From assembly GCA_038874435.1 (NCBI GenBank), contig JAVZCK010000001.1, positions 62,001 through 126,000 of the forward strand: DNA of 64,000 nt. The letters are read 5' to 3'. Each line of letters starts with the position of its first letter. Position 1 is the first letter of the stretch. A model generated the notes under the pieces. It searched no databases. It was not told the origin of the DNA and saw only the letters and a program-made list of their open reading frames with translations. Shown here in pieces: positions 2,919 to 12,092 of the stretch. Made by a program: the position numbers and the translations under genes. Origin of the DNA: Thermoplasmata archaeon. GTDB lineage: Archaea > Thermoplasmatota > Thermoplasmata > Lutacidiplasmatales > SKW197.

Positions 2919-5174
2919 CTAAATTCTTCCAAGCTTCCCTTTGAGTTTTTTAACATAATAGCTGGCACCGATGGCCCCGAGAATTTCCAGGGCGCGGGCA
3001 TAGTATCGTTCTGCTTTTTCCATTTCATTCATTGCCTCATAGGTTCTTCCAAGTTCCCAGAGTTCACGACCAAGTTCGTACTGCACTCCCAGTGCCTGAT
3101 GAATCTCAAGTGCAAGCTCGAAGTATTCTATTGCGTTTAGATAATTTTTCAATTCTCGTTCTGCCCATCCTAGGACCCTGAATGCTCTCGCAGTTCCAAA
3201 CCTATTTTTGTTCATTCTGCATGTCTCTACAAATGCATAACATCGCTTCTTTGCTTCATCTATTTTGCCCAACTTTATCAGTGCAAAACCGTGATTGGTC
3301 TCTACCCACTGCACAAAGCTCTCGTTCTCTGTTTTTTTTGCATACTCTAATGCTTCTATGAATTTTGCATCTGCTTTGGCAAAATCCTCTTTCTGTACAT
3401 AGACCTCGCCCGCATTGCAGAGTGCTCTCCCCATGTCCAGGTAGTGCTTCCCTTTTTCAAAATTTTTGCATGCCATTGCATAATGCATCAACGCATCATC
3501 AAGGTTGCCTCTCATGTTGTACAGATTTCCAAGTTCCAAGAAAAGAATTCCATTTAACCATGTGTCATGAAGTTTCTGAGCAGTGCCAAGAGCTATGGAA
3601 TATTCATCCAGCGCTTTCCGCCAGTTTCCGAGACGAAGGTAAATGTATCCACAGCCCCTATGGGCCATTGCAATTTCCATTTCATGTTTCGAGCCGATTG
3701 CAATTTCCAGGGCTTTCTCATAAAATTTCAGGGCTTCCCAGTAATCAGCACGAAGATTTGCCAAATTCCCAAGTTTCAGATGGAGTGACGCATGAAGCTT
3801 TGCATCAGTTTTAACTACTGGTTCTTCAATCAACCTGTTGTATATTTCACCTGCCCTTTCAAACTCGCCCAGTCCGTAATATATGTCTCCTATTCTACTC
3901 TTAACTTCAGCTTGCAAAAAGATGTTACCGATGTATGCTGCACACTTCTCTGCCATCTTTAGAAATTCCAATGTGCGTTCGAATGCATATTCTTCATAAG
4001 ATAGCTCAGCGCTTCTCAGCAAATATCTAAGTGCAAGTTCGTAGTTTTCTCCGTGAAAATGATGGTATGCAAGTGCATAAATTTTTTCCTCACCTTCCCT
4101 GTATTTTCTAGATATGTATTCAGCAGCCATCTTATGTATATGGGCACGCACATCCTGTGGAAGTTGGGAATAGAGGTATGCCCGAATTACAGGAGTTTTA
4201 AACACATATTTATCTCCGACTTCTTCAATGACCTCAGAATTTATCAATTTTTCCAGAACATCTACGAGCTCTTCCTCGCTCTGATTGCACATCTTTGCCA
4301 AAAATCCCATTTCAAAGCTGAGTCCAATTACACTTGCAACTCTTGCCACTTCCAACTCTCGAGGGGATAATTTAGCGAGCTTGCTCTCAAATGATAGTTT
4401 AAGCTTTTCAGGTGCAATCAACCCAATTTCCCTATCTTTTTCCGCAGATAAATGTCTGCAGAGGTCCCGGATTAAGCCCGGATTGCCTCTGGAGTATGCA
4501 TAAATTTGTTCTAGAGTAAGGCGATTTGCGTCTTTCAAATACTTTTTAGCAACAGTAATACTCTCCTCCTTTCCTAGAGTTCCCAGACGTATTCTTACAC
4601 AGAGCTTCTCGGTATTTAGCATCGAAATCATTGTGACAATTCGCTCATTCTGATTTAGTTTTGCATCTTCTTGCGAATATGTGCACAATATCAGCAACCG
4701 TGACTGCTGCGCTTTCATTGTGAGATAGTGGAGCAGTCCCACACTTGATGCATCCATCCATTCGATGTTGTCAAAAAACAACACCAATCCTTCCGTGCTG
4801 ACTGCTTCCACAAATGCATAAACCTTTTCGTAGAGAAAACTCTGCGCTGTACGCAAATCAGGGATGTCCAGAGTTCTAGTTCCGAGAAAGGGCGCAAGCC
4901 CGAGAGGCACAAATTCTGGGTGCAGGTTCCTTATGTCATCGAGCATCTGAATAAAGGTGGAATAGGGGCGTCCCATGTCATATCTCCGAGCGTCTGCACC
5001 GACGAAGAGAATTCCCTTTTCTCTGCAGTATTCCTCAAATTTTTCACAGAGGTAGGTTTTTCCAACTCCATGCTCTCCCTCTATTATAACTGTGTTGCCC
5101 CTTCCTTTTTGCATCTCCTCGAGTATCCTTACCAGTTGTCGGAATTCGTTCTCTCTACCTATCATTTCCTCCAT
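2919..5174 (-). CDS. AAA ATPase with TPR array (STAND/COG3899-like)
   Basis: A signalling-type ATPase of about 751 aa, the first of three paralogues here. An N-terminal GREN-type AAA domain carries Walker A (GEHGVGKT, residues 33-40) and Walker B (VLFFDNIEW, about 131-139). A helical winged region follows to about 350, then TPR repeats to the C-terminus (YWEALKFYEKALEIA, NWRKALDEYSIALGTA, NYLNAIEYFELALEIH). No DNA-binding or catalytic effector domain is visible. The start at MEEMIGREN leaves an 11-nt gap after the upstream tail-anchored TPR protein, so the two are probably co-transcribed. Known relatives (MalT/AfsR type) oligomerise on ligand binding; the ligand and output here are unknown. 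Confidence 0.85.
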   Translation of the reverse strand: MEEMIGRENEFRQLVRILEEMQKGRGNTVIIEGEHGVGKTYLCEKFEEYCREKGILFVGADARRYDMGRPYSTFIQMLDDIRNLHPEFVPLGLAPFLGTRTLDIPDLRTAQSFLYEKVYAFVEAVSTEGLVLFFDNIEWMDASSVGLLHYLTMKAQQSRLLILCTYSQEDAKLNQNERIVTMISMLNTEKLCVRIRLGTLGKEESITVAKKYLKDANRLTLEQIYAYSRGNPGLIRDLCRHLSAEKDREIGLIAPEKLKLSFESKLAKLSPRELEVARVASVIGLSFEMGFLAKMCNQSEEELVDVLEKLINSEVIEEVGDKYVFKTPVIRAYLYSQLPQDVRAHIHKMAAEYISRKYREGEEKIYALAYHHFHGENYELALRYLLRSAELSYEEYAFERTLEFLKMAEKCAAYIGNIFLQAEVKSRIGDIYYGLGEFERAGEIYNRLIEEPVVKTDAKLHASLHLKLGNLANLRADYWEALKFYEKALEIAIGSKHEMEIAMAHRGCGYIYLRLGNWRKALDEYSIALGTAQKLHDTWLNGILFLELGNLYNMRGNLDDALMHYAMACKNFEKGKHYLDMGRALCNAGEVYVQKEDFAKADAKFIEALEYAKKTENESFVQWVETNHGFALIKLGKIDEAKKRCYAFVETCRMNKNRFGTARAFRVLGWAERELKNYLNAIEYFELALEIHQALGVQYELGRELWELGRTYEAMNEMEKAERYYARALEILGAIGASYYVKKLKGKLGRI

Positions 5175-5185
5175 AATTTCTCTTC

Positions 5186-6097
5186 TCACCGTATTACGAA
5201 GAACCACAAGGCAAGACCAAGGATAATCACGCTGATTATCAGGCCTATGACCAGAACTTGATTTACAGGATCATCAAAAAATTTAATTTTCTTTTCTTCT
5301 GGTTTCGGAATTTCATTAACAGCACTCATGCTTTCTAGATAAATTCGTAGGTCTTCCGTTGCACTCTTTTTATTCTCCTCTACATTTGGTGGGATTTCGT
5401 TTGGCTCTAATCTCTCATTTTTTTTTGAAATTTTTAAAACTTCCCCCTCTTTCTTAGAGGGGCTTATTACCTGCGGGATCTGGGTCCCCTCTGTTTCCTT
5501 CTCAGATTTTGCTTGGGTTGATTCCACTGGCGTGGATGCGGGAGTCGCTGGTGGAATTACAGTATGTTTCAACTCTCGCCTTAGAATGTGCACCAAGTTT
5601 GGGTCTGGTGGGTGTTCATCAAATATGAGCACACCACAGCATGGGCAGGAACTGGCGTTGAAATCCACCTTTGCACCACAAAGTGGACAGTGATAAATAT
5701 CGCCAGATATGAGTGGAACAGCATCTTGAAAATCCTCGCTGGCGAACACAAAGCCACATACTTTGCATACTTGGTCTTCCCCTTTGATTTCCTTTCCGCA
5801 TCTTGGACAAAGATTTGGAAGTGTAGTGTCCTTCGTCGCAGTCGCCACAACCTTCTTGTAGCACTCCACTGCCTTCTCCTTTTCCCCAATTTCCATGTAA
5901 ACATCGCCAAGTGCATCCCAGGCCTCGAAATAATCTGGCTTTATGCTTGTTGCTGTTTGAAAAGCATTAATTGCCTTATCTATGTCTCCGATTGTGCTCA
6001 GCAACTTTCCCATTTCAAACCATAACACAGGATTATTTGGTTCTTTTTTGATTGCCTCTTCATACTCTTTTATTTTCTTTTCAATCATTCTTTCCAT
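5186..6097 (-). CDS. tail-anchored TPR / double zinc-ribbon protein
   Basis: 303 aa. Residues 1-90 form two or three TPR units (AINAFQTATSIKPDYFEAWD, EKAVECYKKVVA). Two zinc ribbons follow (CPRCGKEIKGEDQVCKVC; CPLCGAKVDFNASSCPCC), then a long Pro/Ser/Glu/Lys-rich linker. A single hydrophobic helix lies at the very C-terminus (VLVIGLIISVIILGLALWFF) with only a few residues after it, so the protein should be anchored by its tail with the TPR and zinc domains in the cytoplasm. The start has AGAGGA five bases upstream and an AT-rich TATA-like stretch before that. It is first in an operon with the AAA-TPR ATPase and could be its membrane adaptor (inference). Confidence 0.8.
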   Translation of the reverse strand: MERMIEKKIKEYEEAIKKEPNNPVLWFEMGKLLSTIGDIDKAINAFQTATSIKPDYFEAWDALGDVYMEIGEKEKAVECYKKVVATATKDTTLPNLCPRCGKEIKGEDQVCKVCGFVFASEDFQDAVPLISGDIYHCPLCGAKVDFNASSCPCCGVLIFDEHPPDPNLVHILRRELKHTVIPPATPASTPVESTQAKSEKETEGTQIPQVISPSKKEGEVLKISKKNERLEPNEIPPNVEENKKSATEDLRIYLESMSAVNEIPKPEEKKIKFFDDPVNQVLVIGLIISVIILGLALWFFVIR

Positions 6098-6729: not shown

Positions 6730-7611
6730 ATGAAGATTGGGATTCTCACATATGATGATGAGTGGGTGCAGGAATTAATCCATAAATTGAGTCTGCATTT
6801 AGAAAATGTAGAGATAAGGGTTATTGGAATTTCAGAAGTCGCCCTCTCCAAGCCCATTGAGTACGACATAATTCTAGACAGACAGTCCTACCTTGAACCG
6901 TATCTCAGATGTGCAATGAAGCATGCGGCCCTGCATGGAACCTATGTGATAAACAATCCTTTTTCTTGCTCGTTGGATGACAAATTTTTTTTCTATGGGA
7001 TTGCTGAGAAGCTGGGAATGAAGGTGCCTAAGACCTTGATGCTCCCTCCATTTGATCCCGACTACGAGTTTGGACATGTGCTGCCACCGATATCGTGGGA
7101 TTGGGTGAAGAAAGAGATAAGCTTTCCAGCGGTGTTAAAGCCTGTGAATGGATATGCCTGGCGGAATGTTTTCTTTGTCAATACCCTGGAGGACCTCGCA
7201 GAGATTTACAAACAAACTGATAATGAAACCATGATTTTGCAGGAAAAAGTTGCCTACGAAGAGTATGTGCGCGCGTTTGTAATTGGCAAGAAGCATGTAT
7301 TGCCAGTTAAGTATGTGCCCAGCGAACGAAAGTATGTTTACACAAATAACTTTCTCTCACTAGAGATGCACCAAAGAATTGTAGAAATCTGCACAAAGTT
7401 AAACACTGTGCTCGACTATGACATCAACACAGTAGAGATAGGGATTGCAGGAGGGATTCCCTATCTCATTGATTTCTCGAATTATGTCCCAGAAATAAAA
7501 ACCTATAATCTTCCTTCGGAGTATTATCGATGGATTGTTGATAAGATTGCAGAAATGATAGCAGAATATGCAAAAAATTGTGTAAAAAACAGAAACATGT
7601 TTTTATTCTAA
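6730..7611 (+). CDS. ATP-grasp ligase-like protein, substrate unknown
   Basis: 293 aa. The N-terminal Rossmann-like segment (MKIGILTYDDEW) and the central ATP-grasp parts are visible: a lysine strand (FPAVLKPVNGYAWRNVFFV, about 136-154), the QEKV strand, and a metal-binding end (NTVEIGIAGGIPYLIDFSNY). This matches RimK/D-Ala-ligase-like carboxylate-amine ligases in outline, but no known subfamily is clear. It sits 6 nt after pdaD, so an amine such as agmatine or a downstream polyamine is a reasonable substrate guess. The 3' end overlaps the convergent KaiC-like gene by 9 nt. Confidence 0.7.
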   Translation: MKIGILTYDDEWVQELIHKLSLHLENVEIRVIGISEVALSKPIEYDIILDRQSYLEPYLRCAMKHAALHGTYVINNPFSCSLDDKFFFYGIAEKLGMKVPKTLMLPPFDPDYEFGHVLPPISWDWVKKEISFPAVLKPVNGYAWRNVFFVNTLEDLAEIYKQTDNETMILQEKVAYEEYVRAFVIGKKHVLPVKYVPSERKYVYTNNFLSLEMHQRIVEICTKLNTVLDYDINTVEIGIAGGIPYLIDFSNYVPEIKTYNLPSEYYRWIVDKIAEMIAEYAKNCVKNRNMFLF

Positions 7612-8322
7612 GGGAATCTTTTCCTTGTGAATGACAATTCCTGTTTCGGTAATTTCATACATTAAGGGGTGTCTAGGGGTTTTTGTTGCCCGCAACTTTC
7701 TCACATACATCAGTTGGATTGGTCTTGTAGTGTAAGGGTCATGTTGGTAAGTGAGCCGTATAAATCCATGCATGGGTGCAGCGACAGCTCTTAGCACATT
7801 TGGCTCCACGGCTTCATCCATGATTAGAAGAGCAGTCAGTCGCTTTTCTCTAAAAGTGGTCATGATTTCAGTTGCGGTCTCCCGTGCCATCGTTGCATTC
7901 ATTGGTAGGAAGTATGGTGTAATTGTGTCTATGACTACACAGTCCACACCCGACGGGATAGCACTAAGGAGGTCCCTAAAACTCTGGATGAGATAGTCGC
8001 CAGTTGGAGTCGCAAACGAGGCCTCTATTGCCCTGTGAAGTGAAGTATCCACCACTTTCAATTCGTTGCCCACATACTTATCTAGTGGCATTCCAACCAA
8101 TGATGCCTGGAGTAAGATTGATTCAAGTGGTTCCTCTGTGGTCACTAACCCAACCTTATGACCGTCTTTGAGGGCTTTACTCATAAAATGGATTGAGAAA
8201 ATGGTTTTGCCAGTGCCTGGCTCTCCACTTATTAGATAGCTTCGGTCCTTTACAAAACCCTCAATAATCGCATCGAGATCTGGTACACCTGTCGGCATCC
8301 GCTCAACATGAATTTTAGACAT
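7603..8322 (-). CDS. KaiC/RadA-like RecA-superfamily ATPase
   Basis: A single KaiC domain of 239 aa. It begins with the family's TGVPDLDAIIEG and has Walker A GEPGTGKT (about residues 34-41) and Walker B CVVIDTITPY. No kinase-type second domain is present. A GAGGAG ribosome site precedes the ATG, with a TATA-like element at 8358-8367. Proteins of this family are widespread in archaea, and most have no assigned role; some regulate motility or transcription. It is transcribed alone. Confidence 0.85.
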   Translation of the reverse strand: MSKIHVERMPTGVPDLDAIIEGFVKDRSYLISGEPGTGKTIFSIHFMSKALKDGHKVGLVTTEEPLESILLQASLVGMPLDKYVGNELKVVDTSLHRAIEASFATPTGDYLIQSFRDLLSAIPSGVDCVVIDTITPYFLPMNATMARETATEIMTTFREKRLTALLIMDEAVEPNVLRAVAAPMHGFIRLTYQHDPYTTRPIQLMYVRKLRATKTPRHPLMYEITETGIVIHKEKIPLE

Positions 8323-8367: not shown

Positions 8368-8426
8368 ACTTGCCTCTATTTGGCAATCTTTGTTTCATTG
8401 CGTCTCTGTGGTGCCATGGGAAAATC

Positions 8427-8434
8427 CTTTTATC
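8427..8434 (+). promoter_or_regulatory. TATA box for the cyclophilin-like/cgi121 operon
   Basis: CTTTTATC lies about 27 nt before the ATG at 8457, the spacing of a leaderless archaeal transcript. It supports that ATG over the longer open frame upstream. Confidence 0.5.
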
Positions 8435-8456
8435 TATTGTGTTCATCTCGCATACT

Positions 8457-8831
8457 ATGGCAAAATTCGTTATTGAGACAAGGAGCACCGGGTGTGTCGA
8501 AGCAGAGACCACAGGTGAGAATCCCAACACTGCGAGTAAAATCTTGGCAGCAATTCCATTCAAAGGTAAAGCAAGTTTCTGGGGCGATGAAATTTACTTC
8601 GAAATCCCAGTTGAAGCAAATTTAGAGAGTGGGCGAGTTTATGTGGAGGTAGGAGATATTGCCTACTGGCCAGAGGGTAAGTGCCTCTGCATCTTCTTTG
8701 GAAAAACTTTGAGTAGTGAGGATGAAAGACCAAAGGCATACTCCCCAGTAAATGTATTTGCGAAAATTCAGAAGCCAGAAATTTTTAAGAAGGTAAAAAA
8801 TGGAGAAGAAATTGTTGTTAGAAGGCCTTGA
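8457..8831 (+). CDS. cyclophilin-like domain protein (PF04126/DUF369 type)
   Basis: A 124-residue beta-rich protein. Recognisable parts are the N-terminal strand AKFVIETRSTG, then GENPNTASKILAAIPFKGKASFWGDEIYFEIP, VEVGDIAYWPEGKCLCIFFG and the PVNVFAKI end strand. This is the small cyclophilin-fold family found in archaea and Thermotoga, whose function is unknown; peptidyl-prolyl isomerase activity cannot be assumed. The open frame extends 29 codons upstream, but the TATA box and family length place the start at MAKFVIETRS. It overlaps cgi121 by 32 nt, so the two are translated together. Confidence 0.75.
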   Translation: MAKFVIETRSTGCVEAETTGENPNTASKILAAIPFKGKASFWGDEIYFEIPVEANLESGRVYVEVGDIAYWPEGKCLCIFFGKTLSSEDERPKAYSPVNVFAKIQKPEIFKKVKNGEEIVVRRP

Positions 8832-9294
8832 TTACGAAATTTTCGGGGCCGAAGGTAAGAGTAAGGACATAGTACCAAAGCTAAAGGAGATTTCACAAAG
8901 AATCATCGTTTTTGATGCTGACTGGGTTCTTGGTAGAGTTCACATTAAATTTGCCTTGTTCCATGCCCGGAGGGCCTTCGAAAAAAAAATTCATAAAGTA
9001 AATACTTTTGAAAATTGCGTTCTTCTTTATGTTGGTCTCTCCAGCCAAATTTATGAGGCGAGAAGAAATGCAGGTGTGAAGCCAGAAACTAGAAGGTTTG
9101 CGATCGTATCACCTCGAGACATTGAAAAGGTCCGAATCCTGAATGTTCTCGACCTTGAGGAGCGTGAGGAGGTAATTCAGTTTAGCGAGGCAAAAGCCAG
9201 GAGGGTTTTTTCACAAGAGGAGCTCGAGGCAACACCAATTGTGAAATGGCAATATCTAGTGCTTGAGAGAATGGCACTATTGAACCTACCATAA
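8800..9294 (+). CDS. cgi121: KEOPS complex subunit Cgi121
   Basis: 164 aa. The protein matches Cgi121 in outline: DADWVLGRVHIKFALFHARR, then ENCVLLYVGLSSQIYEARRNAGV, where the family has a conserved His/Ala helix followed by the xQI..A....G tract. In archaea Cgi121 binds Bud32 and helps bring the tRNA 3' end to KEOPS for t6A37 synthesis. Sua5, which makes the donor threonylcarbamoyl-AMP, is at 34942-35961; Kae1 and Bud32 are not in the window. AAGGT lies just upstream of the ATG. Confidence 0.75.
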   Translation: MEKKLLLEGLDYEIFGAEGKSKDIVPKLKEISQRIIVFDADWVLGRVHIKFALFHARRAFEKKIHKVNTFENCVLLYVGLSSQIYEARRNAGVKPETRRFAIVSPRDIEKVRILNVLDLEEREEVIQFSEAKARRVFSQEELEATPIVKWQYLVLERMALLNLP

Positions 9295-9993
9295 CTACCA
9301 TGTCCAGCTCCAGGTATAGTTTGTATTGTTTGTAGAAAGCAGTTGCTTAAGATGGATGATTCTATGGGGAAGATTTCTCTGGGAAAGTTTCTTTGAGATA
9401 CCATCAATGTGACCCTCTCCCACAACGCAGACAATGTTTGTATATTCTTTTGCTAGCATTGAAATTCGCCAAGCCATGTAATCGTTTCTATCATCTATCA
9501 GAATTTTCTTGAGGGTTGGAAACTCTTTTCCAAACTCTTCAATTACCTTCGTTTCTGCTGTCATAAATTCCTCTATGCTCTTTTCTACCTTCTTCTTAGG
9601 TAAAAAAATTCCAAATAGAATGCTAGCAAGAAGTTTTCCACGTTCCACAAACGACATCTCTCGCCAGATTCTTTCAGCGATAGTAACTGCATCTATGTCT
9701 ATAAATTCAAGTTTTGCGTTCAAGCTTCTCGCAGCATGTATTGCAGCGAGCATTTCCATACCTGGCTCAGTCTCAAATTTGTCAGCTATAATTTTCTGAA
9801 ATACCGCAAGCATCTGATACATTACCGGCACATTTCTTCCCGCTACCTCTTTGCTTTGATTTGGCTGTAAAAGTGCTTTTGCTCTATCTTGGTCCAATTC
9901 TATACAAACAATTTCTGGTTCTGCAGCAGCAATTTCATGTCTTACCTTTTCACTTATGTCGAAAACATGTCCCACACCGATAAGCACTATCAT
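9295..9993 (-). CDS. TraB/PrgY family protein
   Basis: 232 aa. It has the TraB hallmarks: N-terminal GVGHVFDIS, ELDQDRAKAL, a central IAERIWREMSFVERGKL region, DDRNDYMAWRI, and VVGEGHIDGI near the C-terminus. These GxGH/E motifs suggest a TIKI/TraB-type metal-dependent hydrolase fold. The transmembrane tail of longer archaeal members is missing; only one weakly hydrophobic stretch (LLASILFGIFL) is present. It is the last gene of the KaiC-like operon, 4 nt after the preceding stop. Its role is unknown. Confidence 0.85.
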   Translation of the reverse strand: MIVLIGVGHVFDISEKVRHEIAAAEPEIVCIELDQDRAKALLQPNQSKEVAGRNVPVMYQMLAVFQKIIADKFETEPGMEMLAAIHAARSLNAKLEFIDIDAVTIAERIWREMSFVERGKLLASILFGIFLPKKKVEKSIEEFMTAETKVIEEFGKEFPTLKKILIDDRNDYMAWRISMLAKEYTNIVCVVGEGHIDGISKKLSQRNLPHRIIHLKQLLSTNNTNYTWSWTW

Positions 9994-9997
9994 AAAC

Positions 9998-10744
9998 TTA
10001 CTTCATCGGCTTTGCAACGAACCCCTTCTCTCCGATTTCAAGTAGTAAAGTTTCTCCCTTCTCAGGGTGATTCCTCACCTTTTTCACAAAAAGCTTGAGA
10101 CGAGTTTCAAGCTGCGCCTTTTCCTTCTGGAGTTCCACCACGCAATCAGCAATCTCCTCGAGCCCACTCTGTGTTGCTCTATCGTAGACATCCTTTAACA
10201 TTGTGATACAAACCACACCGCCATGATGCTGAGAATGTGCCTTAATCAATCGCATTGTTGAAAGCACGTCGCTTCTGTCATAAATTTCCATAAAAAAATC
10301 AATTGAGTCTATCACTATTCTAAATGGGGGTTTAAGCCGTGAAACTCTATAATTTGCAAGGGTTAGAAAGTTCGTAGCTCTCATTTTGCTTTCATCAAGA
10401 GTTATGTTTTTAACATCATTCACACCAATACCTTCCTGACGATATTTGCTGATCTCCAACTCCTTTGCAAGAATTTCTTCATAGTACATTGTAGCAATGT
10501 TAACTATTTGCATATCAGACTTCCACCCGAACTCATGCATGGTGTTGATTATATCTTCTGTTCTTTCTGTAGTAGTAATGTAAAGCACATTTTCTTTACC
10601 AATTCCTGCAGTTGCAAACTGTTTTGCGAAAAGCTCAGTGCCGCTGCCCGGCTCTCCCGAAACCAGCAGGGTGTACCCTTTTGGTAAACCCTTCAACAGC
10701 GCCTCATCCAGTCCTTCTATTCCCACACTTACAGTTTCTACCAT
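9998..10744 (-). CDS. RecA-superfamily (KaiC-like) protein with altered P-loop
   Basis: 248 aa. It opens like KaiC (VGIEGLDEALLKGLPKGYTLLVS). Its P-loop reads GEPGSGTE (about residues 31-38), so the Walker lysine is replaced by Thr and the next Thr/Ser by Glu. The Walker B strand is kept (RIVIDSIDFFMEIY), as is the C-terminal KVRNHPEKGETLLLEIGEKG. It may bind nucleotide weakly or not at all. It lies between a P-loop-less relative and TraB in one operon (gaps of 8 and 4 nt), so a non-catalytic partner role for the intact KaiC-like protein is likely. Confidence 0.8.
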   Translation of the reverse strand: MVETVSVGIEGLDEALLKGLPKGYTLLVSGEPGSGTELFAKQFATAGIGKENVLYITTTERTEDIINTMHEFGWKSDMQIVNIATMYYEEILAKELEISKYRQEGIGVNDVKNITLDESKMRATNFLTLANYRVSRLKPPFRIVIDSIDFFMEIYDRSDVLSTMRLIKAHSQHHGGVVCITMLKDVYDRATQSGLEEIADCVVELQKEKAQLETRLKLFVKKVRNHPEKGETLLLEIGEKGFVAKPMK

Positions 10745-10752
10745 CTCACCAC

Positions 10753-11325
10753 CTATTTCACAATAATCGTATCATCGCAGACCAAGCTGAGCATGTTTGA
10801 GATTTCATCACTGTTCTTTTCCTCAACACCTAGTATGATAGTGAATACTCCCTTTGATTTAAGGTTGTTCACAAGAATGTGCAAGAACTCTGCCAGGATT
10901 CGATTGCCATTGTGAATTGCAAGAGTGTTGATTGAATCCAGAATCAGGAGTTTATTCTCATTTGCCAGCTTTTTCAGCAGAAACTCAATTTTCAGCAGTA
11001 TGTTTTCAAGCATTGTTGGGCTCTCGATGTAAGTTGTTCGCTCCATCTGGGTGGAAACATTCATCATGATGTGGGAGATTGCATCTACGAAGTAGATGTT
11101 GCTTACGTCCACCTCAAACATTTCAAACAGGTTCTTGCAGAGATGGGAAGGAGTGGTAGTGGTGACATAGATACAGGTGTATCTCCTTTCAGGCATGAAT
11201 TCCTTGAGCACGCCTGTAAGTGCCGCCACATAATTGTCCGCAAAGTTAGTTTCACCGATTTTCAGGGCTATTGAGGATCCATCAGGCATACTCTTCAGTC
11301 GTTCTGCTACTTCTGTGCTCTTCAT
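10753..11325 (-). CDS. RecA-fold protein without a P-loop
   Basis: 190 aa. No Walker A is present: the position that should hold it reads IALKIGETNFADNYVAAL. The rest follows the RecA/KaiC layout: YTCIYVTTTTPSHLCKNL, a Walker B-like strand KLLILDSINTLAIHN, and the closing FTIILGVEEKNSDEI strand. Its ATG overlaps the stop of the upstream intact KaiC-like gene (ATGA), so the two are translationally coupled. Probably a regulatory or structural partner; a truncated KaiC relic is less likely because the frame is intact. Confidence 0.7.
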   Translation of the reverse strand: MKSTEVAERLKSMPDGSSIALKIGETNFADNYVAALTGVLKEFMPERRYTCIYVTTTTPSHLCKNLFEMFEVDVSNIYFVDAISHIMMNVSTQMERTTYIESPTMLENILLKIEFLLKKLANENKLLILDSINTLAIHNGNRILAEFLHILVNNLKSKGVFTIILGVEEKNSDEISNMLSLVCDDTIIVK

Positions 11326-12092
11326 TTTTCTGCCCCCATTCCACCCTTCAGCAGTGGCACAAGGAGAATGCCTATTGGTGTGAGGTCAAGCACATACTTT
11401 GCTCTCGAATGGCTCGTTCCTCTCATTTTCACAACTTGAAGGGTTCTTAACAGATCGCCCTTCCTTTCTAGATTTCCTAATATAATTATTCCGTCTGCAA
11501 TTGCTTCTTCGACACCATACATTGAATACCGCTGTTCTGCTGGTGAAATTTCAGAAACAAGTAAGCTCGTGCAACCAAAGTCAGAAAGTGCCTTTCCTAA
11601 CTTTAGAATAAACTCTCTAATTTTCTCCTCAGTTTTCAACTGGAAGCAAACAGAGGTAACAGAATCTATTACAAGCCGTTTAATCTGGAGTTCTCGCACA
11701 ATCCCCGAAATTGCGCTCACAAGCATGTGGATTTCTTCAAATGTAAACTCAGTTTTTCGTAATCCAAGGCGTTCATAGAGTGCGGGCATGTCTATAAAAA
11801 CAAGTAAGCCCTGCTCAATCAATCTGTCATCAAAGAACTCGTAAGGAATTAAGTTTGCAAGGAGCTTGGATGACGGCTCAGTAACTGAAATGAAGAGGCA
11901 CTTTTCACCGCTTAGAGCTCCATGAACTAGAAATTCTAGAGAGAGTGTAGTTTTGCCAGTGCCACAGCTACCGGTGACAAGAATTGTGTTTCCTCTGGGT
12001 ATCCCACCATTTAGAATGTTGTCCAGGCCTTCAATTCCGGTCTTGCATCTTTCCCTTTGAACCCCTTTCTTCTCAGCTAATACATCAGTCAT
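11322..12092 (-). CDS. KaiC-like ATPase (intact)
   Basis: 256 aa from the first ATG; a TTG four codons upstream is also in frame. It carries TGIEGLDNILNGGIPRGNTIL, Walker A GSCGTGKT (about 42-49), the catalytic-glutamate region ISVTEPSS, Walker B RLVIDSVTSV, and the end strand VVKMRGTSHSRAKY. This is the archetypal single-domain archaeal KaiC homologue. It heads a four-gene minus-strand operon with two degenerate relatives and TraB. Confidence 0.85.
   Translation of the reverse strand: MTDVLAEKKGVQRERCKTGIEGLDNILNGGIPRGNTILVTGSCGTGKTTLSLEFLVHGALSGEKCLFISVTEPSSKLLANLIPYEFFDDRLIEQGLLVFIDMPALYERLGLRKTEFTFEEIHMLVSAISGIVRELQIKRLVIDSVTSVCFQLKTEEKIREFILKLGKALSDFGCTSLLVSEISPAEQRYSMYGVEEAIADGIIILGNLERKGDLLRTLQVVKMRGTSHSRAKYVLDLTPIGILLVPLLKGGMGAEK

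Follow-up and report, generated by a model that had tools for sequence, protein, structure and literature searches.

Three adjoining genes in the genome of an archaeon (2.16 Mb, 95% complete) encode one intact KaiC-like ATPase (A) and two relatives, one without a P-loop (B) and one with an altered P-loop (C). A-B-C is the constant unit across the varying neighborhoods in which these genes are found. We infer from these data a heteromeric KaiC-type regulatory complex, along with the division of labor within it and its target: A would be the sole ATPase, C would complete the active site of A, and the complex would be tied to a pilus in part of the phylum. We put the probability of this reading at about one-half. 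The trio is best called a variation on the archaeal theme of KaiC and inactivated KaiC.

Gene layout, motifs, and predicted folds

The genes lie in a window of 64,000 nucleotides, the whole stretch of DNA that was analyzed (Table 1). The intergenic gaps, which are exact from the ORF coordinates, are −4 nt between A and B, 8 nt between B and C, and 4 nt between C and the TraB-family gene, as the original prediction had them. An alternative TTG start codon for A is possible 12 nt further upstream. Near the trio is a further KaiC-like gene, which has a long branch in the tree and is not close to A or C. The Cgi121-like gene scores just under its Pfam cut-off; it adjoins the cyclophilin-like gene, and the pair is convergent with the TraB-family gene. 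In the ORF list, the 762-amino acid protein has apparent repeats in its C-terminal half.

Table 1. Positions in the window of the A-B-C genes and of other genes nearby.
Feature	Coordinates	Strand	Length (aa)	Match or motif
A, single-domain KaiC-like ATPase	11322–12092	−	256	PF06745; intact Walker A and Walker B
B, minimal RecA-fold protein without P-loop	10753–11325	−	190	
C, KaiC-like protein	9998–10744	−	248	GEPGSGTE at Walker A position
TraB/PrgY/GumN-family gene	9295–9993	−	232	PF01963
Cgi121-like (KEOPS) gene	8800–9294	+		Pfam, 23.8 bits (cut-off 25)
Cyclophilin-like gene	8370–8831	+		PF04126
Further KaiC-like gene	7603–8322	−		Intact GEPGTGKT
P-loop protein	2919–5207	−	762	GEHGVGKT

The original prediction described A as an intact KaiC-like ATPase, B as lacking Walker A while keeping a Walker B-like strand, and C as having both the Walker lysine and the following Thr/Ser changed. 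The sequence bears out all three descriptions. A has Walker A (GSCGTGKT) and Walker B (LVIDS) motifs, along with Glu72 and a trans-acting strand (KMRGTSHSR), and belongs to the KaiC family (PF06745, 199.5 bits; Pfam cut-off 26.6). Its Walker lysine is present in 116 of 118 sequences (120 loci, two rows being gaps), and nine A sequences sampled across the phylum form one clade (support 100/98). A resembles cyanobacterial KaiC in fold, Walker motifs, and trans K-x-R, but differs in having one KaiC domain instead of the two tandem domains of the clock protein. The genus of the source organism is expanded in KaiC-like proteins, with 26 matches to A in each of its two genomes; no other genome of the order has more than 12.

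B falls within the same family marginally, at 30.7 bits (cut-off 26.6) and over residues 48–188 only. The P-loop signature GxxxxGK[ST] occurs in none of 120 B proteins, and B therefore does not qualify as a KaiC-family ATPase; its Walker B-like strand reads LLILDSIN. The AlphaFold2 model of B, made with an alignment of related loci (pLDDT 92), has a RecA/KaiC fold. Its RecA core is cut short, stopping after the strand at residues 185–189; the C-terminal finger hairpin and the trans-acting K-x-R strand are both missing. The invariant columns among 47 B sequences include Y32, D81, P103, L106, E107, D130, H138, N139, E146, F147, H149, and L155, so that B is most conserved around a pseudo-site formed by D130-S131, H138-N139, and E146-F147-x-H149.

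The closest structural match to the B model is the KaiC-like protein PH0284 (2dr3; Z 15.8, rmsd 2.7, 175 aligned), followed by PH0321 (3bs4; Z 15.6, rmsd 2.8, 173 aligned) and KaiC (3k09; Z 15.1, rmsd 2.8, 164 aligned). Some Elp chains come within ~1.6 to 2.3 Z of the best match, namely the Elp456 chains 4ejs_A (Z 14.2, rmsd 2.7, 162 aligned) and 4a8j_C (Z 13.5, rmsd 3.1, 167 aligned). The B model thus matches Elp456 almost as well as it does KaiC, and there are weak Pfam matches, below cut-off, to the Elp4 and Elp5 families. Like the trio, the Elongator subcomplex Elp456 consists of three different RecA-fold subunits, in its case a heterohexameric ring that binds RNA. It is nonetheless very unlikely that the A-B-C unit is its archaeal counterpart. 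The sequence-profile matches include no Elp chain, and no clear sequence relationship was found; A and C are plainly of the KaiC family. Moreover, A is an intact ATPase with a full Walker A motif, whereas the consensus for this motif is absent from Elp4–6 according to an excerpt of PMC11050213.

C belongs firmly to the KaiC family (PF06745, 105.1 bits; cut-off 26.6) and aligns to A by hhalign with an E value of 3.7e-11, its K-x-R falling on that of A (KMRGTxHSR). The altered P-loop GEPGSGTE occupies residues 30–37, while Glu60, Walker B (IVIDSID), and the trans strand (KVRNHP) are kept. Among the 91 C sequences from the 120 loci, the trans lysine is kept in 87 and the trans arginine in 71 (KVRNHP and variants). 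The Walker lysine is present in just three of the 91, always as GxGKE, and the Lys-Thr/Ser pair occurs in none of them, so C does not qualify as an ATPase. The position following that of the Walker lysine is glutamate in 52 of the 91. The three exceptions (L208, L209, and L215) read GSGKE or GAGKE, the lysine being kept and glutamate replacing Thr/Ser, and perhaps represent an intermediate stage in the degeneration of C. Because the lysine-bearing forms always have Lys-Glu, loss of the Mg-binding Thr/Ser may predate loss of the lysine. Nine C sequences sampled across the phylum form one clade (support 100/100).

The AlphaFold2 model of C, likewise made with an alignment of related loci (pLDDT 90), also has a RecA/KaiC fold, with further C-terminal strands (residues 213–223, 231–238, and 241–246) beyond those of B. 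Its best structural match is KaiC (7s65; Z 26.7, rmsd 2.2, 206 aligned); ArlH/FlaH is also matched (4yds; Z 24.3, rmsd 2.6, 212 aligned), and there are no Elp chains among the 50 matches listed.

The features retained by C raise the question of whether it, and perhaps B, is a sensor with some unorthodox mode of binding a nucleotide or other ligand. The glycines of the P-loop are still present in C, along with Glu60 and the Walker B aspartate, its three GxGKE relatives have the lysine as well, and the pseudo-site of B is highly conserved. We consider a sensor role unlikely, given that C varies at both the Walker lysine and the Thr/Ser positions. In P-loop NTPases, losing these two residues normally abolishes binding of MgNTP.

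Conservation of the trio in the order and the phylum

Within the order to which the window belongs, B is present in 81 of 106 genomes and in all nine genera. All 60 loci that we took from other genomes of the order have A-B-C contiguous, in the same sequence, and on one strand; these came from 60 of the 80 other genomes with B and were all chosen because B is present. The median gap at these loci is 2 nt between A and B (53 measurable) and −1 nt between B and C (51 measurable). PAC2 and Methyltransf_28 genes adjoin the trio at many of them.

A, B, and C are inherited all-or-none within the order. Every one of the 81 genomes with B has C, and 80 have A (in the exception, G077, B is at a contig end); of the 25 genomes without B, one has C and two have A. 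Each of the four exceptions is truncated at a contig end. The three genes are likewise all absent from six genomes of at least 90% completeness. The lists behind these counts were compiled by hand, with cut-offs of ~60 bits for C and 139 bits for A, and five of the genomes without B were identified by elimination.

Beyond the order, the B profile matches 206 of 389 sampled genomes of the phylum Thermoplasmatota, in 88 of 155 genera, although the weaker matches may be other relatives. We chose 40 loci by hand, from among matches with printed coordinates, to spread over the families of the phylum. A-B-C is contiguous in 27 of these. Another 11 have A-B without an adjoining C, which is either missing or shifted; at two of them (L211 and L212), it lies downstream of B beyond an insert of ~1.1 kb. 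No A was recognized beside B in the remaining two loci (L195 and L196). In one family (L179, L183, L216, and L217), another conserved ORF of ~361 amino acids follows C with almost no gap.

A species genome collection provided a further set of named loci, of which the best 80 of 157 relatives comprise 62 A-B-C and 18 A-B arrangements. Of these best 80, 79 are labeled as Thermoplasmata, Thermoplasmatota, Methanomassiliicoccales, or unplaced Euryarchaeota MAGs; the other, labeled as a bacterium, we take for a mislabeled bin. The nearest named relative, from the same genus, has a B that is 97% identical. The named loci (L099–L178) come partly from the same genomes as the order (L039–L098) and phylum (L179–L218) loci, and the sets are not additive. 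A search for C elsewhere in the genome gave none in 18 of 18 A-B-only genomes tested, with scores of 358 and 205 bits in the two genomes with C that were included as positive controls (20 searched). As A-B occurs without C in several families, and no C lies elsewhere in these 18 genomes, C is not indispensable.

A comparison of the two genomes of the genus gives 97–98% identity for A, B, and C and dN/dS ratios of 0.010 for A, 0.018 for B, and 0.008 for C, the ratios being approximate because dS is near saturation. To judge from these ratios, B and C are under strong purifying selection. The loss of P-loop motifs from B and C might in principle mark them as decaying copies of A. Orthologues with the same losses occur throughout the phylum, however, and together with purifying selection and co-inheritance these refute decay, a reading now hardly conceivable. 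For the original prediction, normal P-loops in relatives of the altered proteins B and C would have pointed to local decay, and a search for such forms found none. It had also proposed a synteny search for all four genes, which found A-B-C kept together and not scattered among relatives.

The fourth gene fared otherwise. It belongs to the TraB/PrgY/GumN family (67.2 bits; cut-off 26.8), and scores 121.3 bits against TIGR00261, under that model's own cut-off of 178.35. The original prediction had grouped it with the trio, and in this genus it does begin 4 nt downstream of C. A TraB gene adjoins the trio in only one of the 60 order loci (L039, the other genome of the genus) and in one of the best 80 of 157 named loci, which is again the other genome of the genus. 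It also evolves much faster than its neighbors, with 72% identity between the two genomes as compared with 97–98% for A-C. Synteny and divergence thus led us to reject TraB as a partner; that it is a working part of the module is improbable in the extreme, and it adjoins the trio in this genus only.

Association with type IV pilins

A gene for a short type IV pilin follows the trio in part of the phylum. The pilin motif was searched for within 900 bp downstream, and the order membership of named loci was assigned by hand. Among named loci outside the window's order, a pilin is the next gene downstream on the same strand in 28 of 31 with at least 400 bp of downstream sequence (35 in all). Pilins also lie downstream on the same strand in 15 of 37 phylum loci (40 in all), spanning 12 family labels. 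They follow A-B-C units as well as A-B units; at three loci of one family (L197, L205, and L206), the distance from C to the start of the pilin ORF is −7 to 32 nt. For the order of the window, by contrast, the count is zero: of its 60 loci, 57 extend 400 bp or more past the trio, and none of these has a pilin there.

The order does show a difference in pilin number. Among genomes with a completeness of 80% or more, the 61 with the trio have 3.3 copies of Pilin_N as compared with 1.0 in the 13 without (Mann-Whitney, one-sided, p 5e-6). The test takes no account of relatedness or genome size, and most of the genomes without the trio are smaller, with nearly all belonging to a single genus. The six genomes that are at least 90% complete and have no trio all retain T2SSE, the pilus/archaellum ATPase family. 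We counted this lack of co-loss with T2SSE against a simple pilus link in the window's order. No motor genes adjoin the window's unit, and two tandem short pilins of the source genome lie on another contig. One pilin alignment (A5) was applied to the source genome only, since its N-termini are near-invariant and its heads divergent. Judged by position, the pilin link is strong in some parts of the phylum; in the order of the window it is weak.

A proposed complex and its relation to known systems

In rings of KaiC, the K-x-R strand reaches the ATP site of the neighboring subunit. A KaiC-type interface in the proposed complex would likewise take the P-loop from one subunit and the K-x-R strand from the next. 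A would be the only subunit to bind ATP in the usual way and would provide both elements. C would not bind MgATP normally and would provide only the K-x-R strand; as this is kept as in KaiC rings, C could complete or gate the site of A. B would provide neither element. With the roles so distributed, A-C interfaces would be capable of hydrolysis, C-A interfaces would not, and B would be a cap or adaptor. B lacks both sites and retains just a pseudo-active face, itself strongly conserved, so a role as scaffold or adaptor is probable. The complex would act as an ATP-dependent conformational switch, in line with the hetero-oligomeric switch suggested by the original prediction and much as ArlH does for the archaellum motor, and its target in pilin-linked lineages would probably be the type IV pilus.

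B and C might instead be KaiC-derived adaptors that bind clients or A transiently, with the operon as a signaling relay, not a mixed ring. Such a relay is possible, if not our favored account. It suits the missing finger hairpin of B and the existence of A-B units without C, and A, with a K-x-R strand of its own, could form rings without the other two, which counts against a mixed complex. Inactivated KaiC-like domains (iKaiC) are also an accepted theme in archaea and known parts of signaling, according to an excerpt of PMC5847659. Stable subunits are nevertheless a better fit to the strict co-inheritance, the overlapping genes, and the conserved trans strand of C. A bolder form of it would have a KaiC ring throughout the phylum, with ATP sites in A, activating fingers from C, and B as cap or coupler, that sets type IV pilus assembly. 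This we find doubtful; if true, it would be a prokaryotic three-gene ring design comparable to Elp456 or clock KaiC.

Archaeal KaiC-like ATPases and their inactivated homologues were reportedly described as signaling hubs by Makarova, Galperin, and Koonin in 2017. As in these hubs, a KaiC-family ATPase stands alongside homologues with inactivated ATPase domains. The trio differs in that its members are encoded separately, by three genes in a constant sequence that are inherited all-or-none in one order and widespread in the phylum, and in having no fused receiver or other signaling domain. A literature search of titles and abstract openings returned no description of the trio, and the 2017 study may mention these families.

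Several KaiC-like proteins have been connected with pili. ArlH (FlaH) is a KaiC-like regulator that can gate the type IV pilus-type archaellum motor, according to an excerpt of PMC8978795. The trio is like ArlH in its single RecA/KaiC domains and, in many lineages, its type IV pilus-like link. It differs in having three subunits instead of one, in the absence of motor genes beside the window's unit, and in its scores against the ArlH model (NCBIfam NF052589; cut-off 215), which are 34.1 bits for A and 49.2 bits for C, B having no match. KaiC ATPase genes near archaeal type IV pili were noted by Makarova, Koonin, and Albers in 2016 (PMC4858521); an excerpt of that paper gives no account of a pair of inactive partners or of a lone pilin beside such a trio. 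CirA, which is KaiC-like, is tied to the control of pilin-mediated motility in Haloferax by the title of a reference in PMC13286277.

Gene-by-gene annotation (KaiC, hypothetical, KaiC) hides the three-gene unit. Archaea have many KaiC-like regulators, which are poorly understood; the source genome alone has 36 matches to PF06745. With one live and two dead subunits, the trio offers a defined module for testing how dead relatives may control a live KaiC, and in lineages where trio and pilin adjoin, the type IV pilin is the candidate target of that control.
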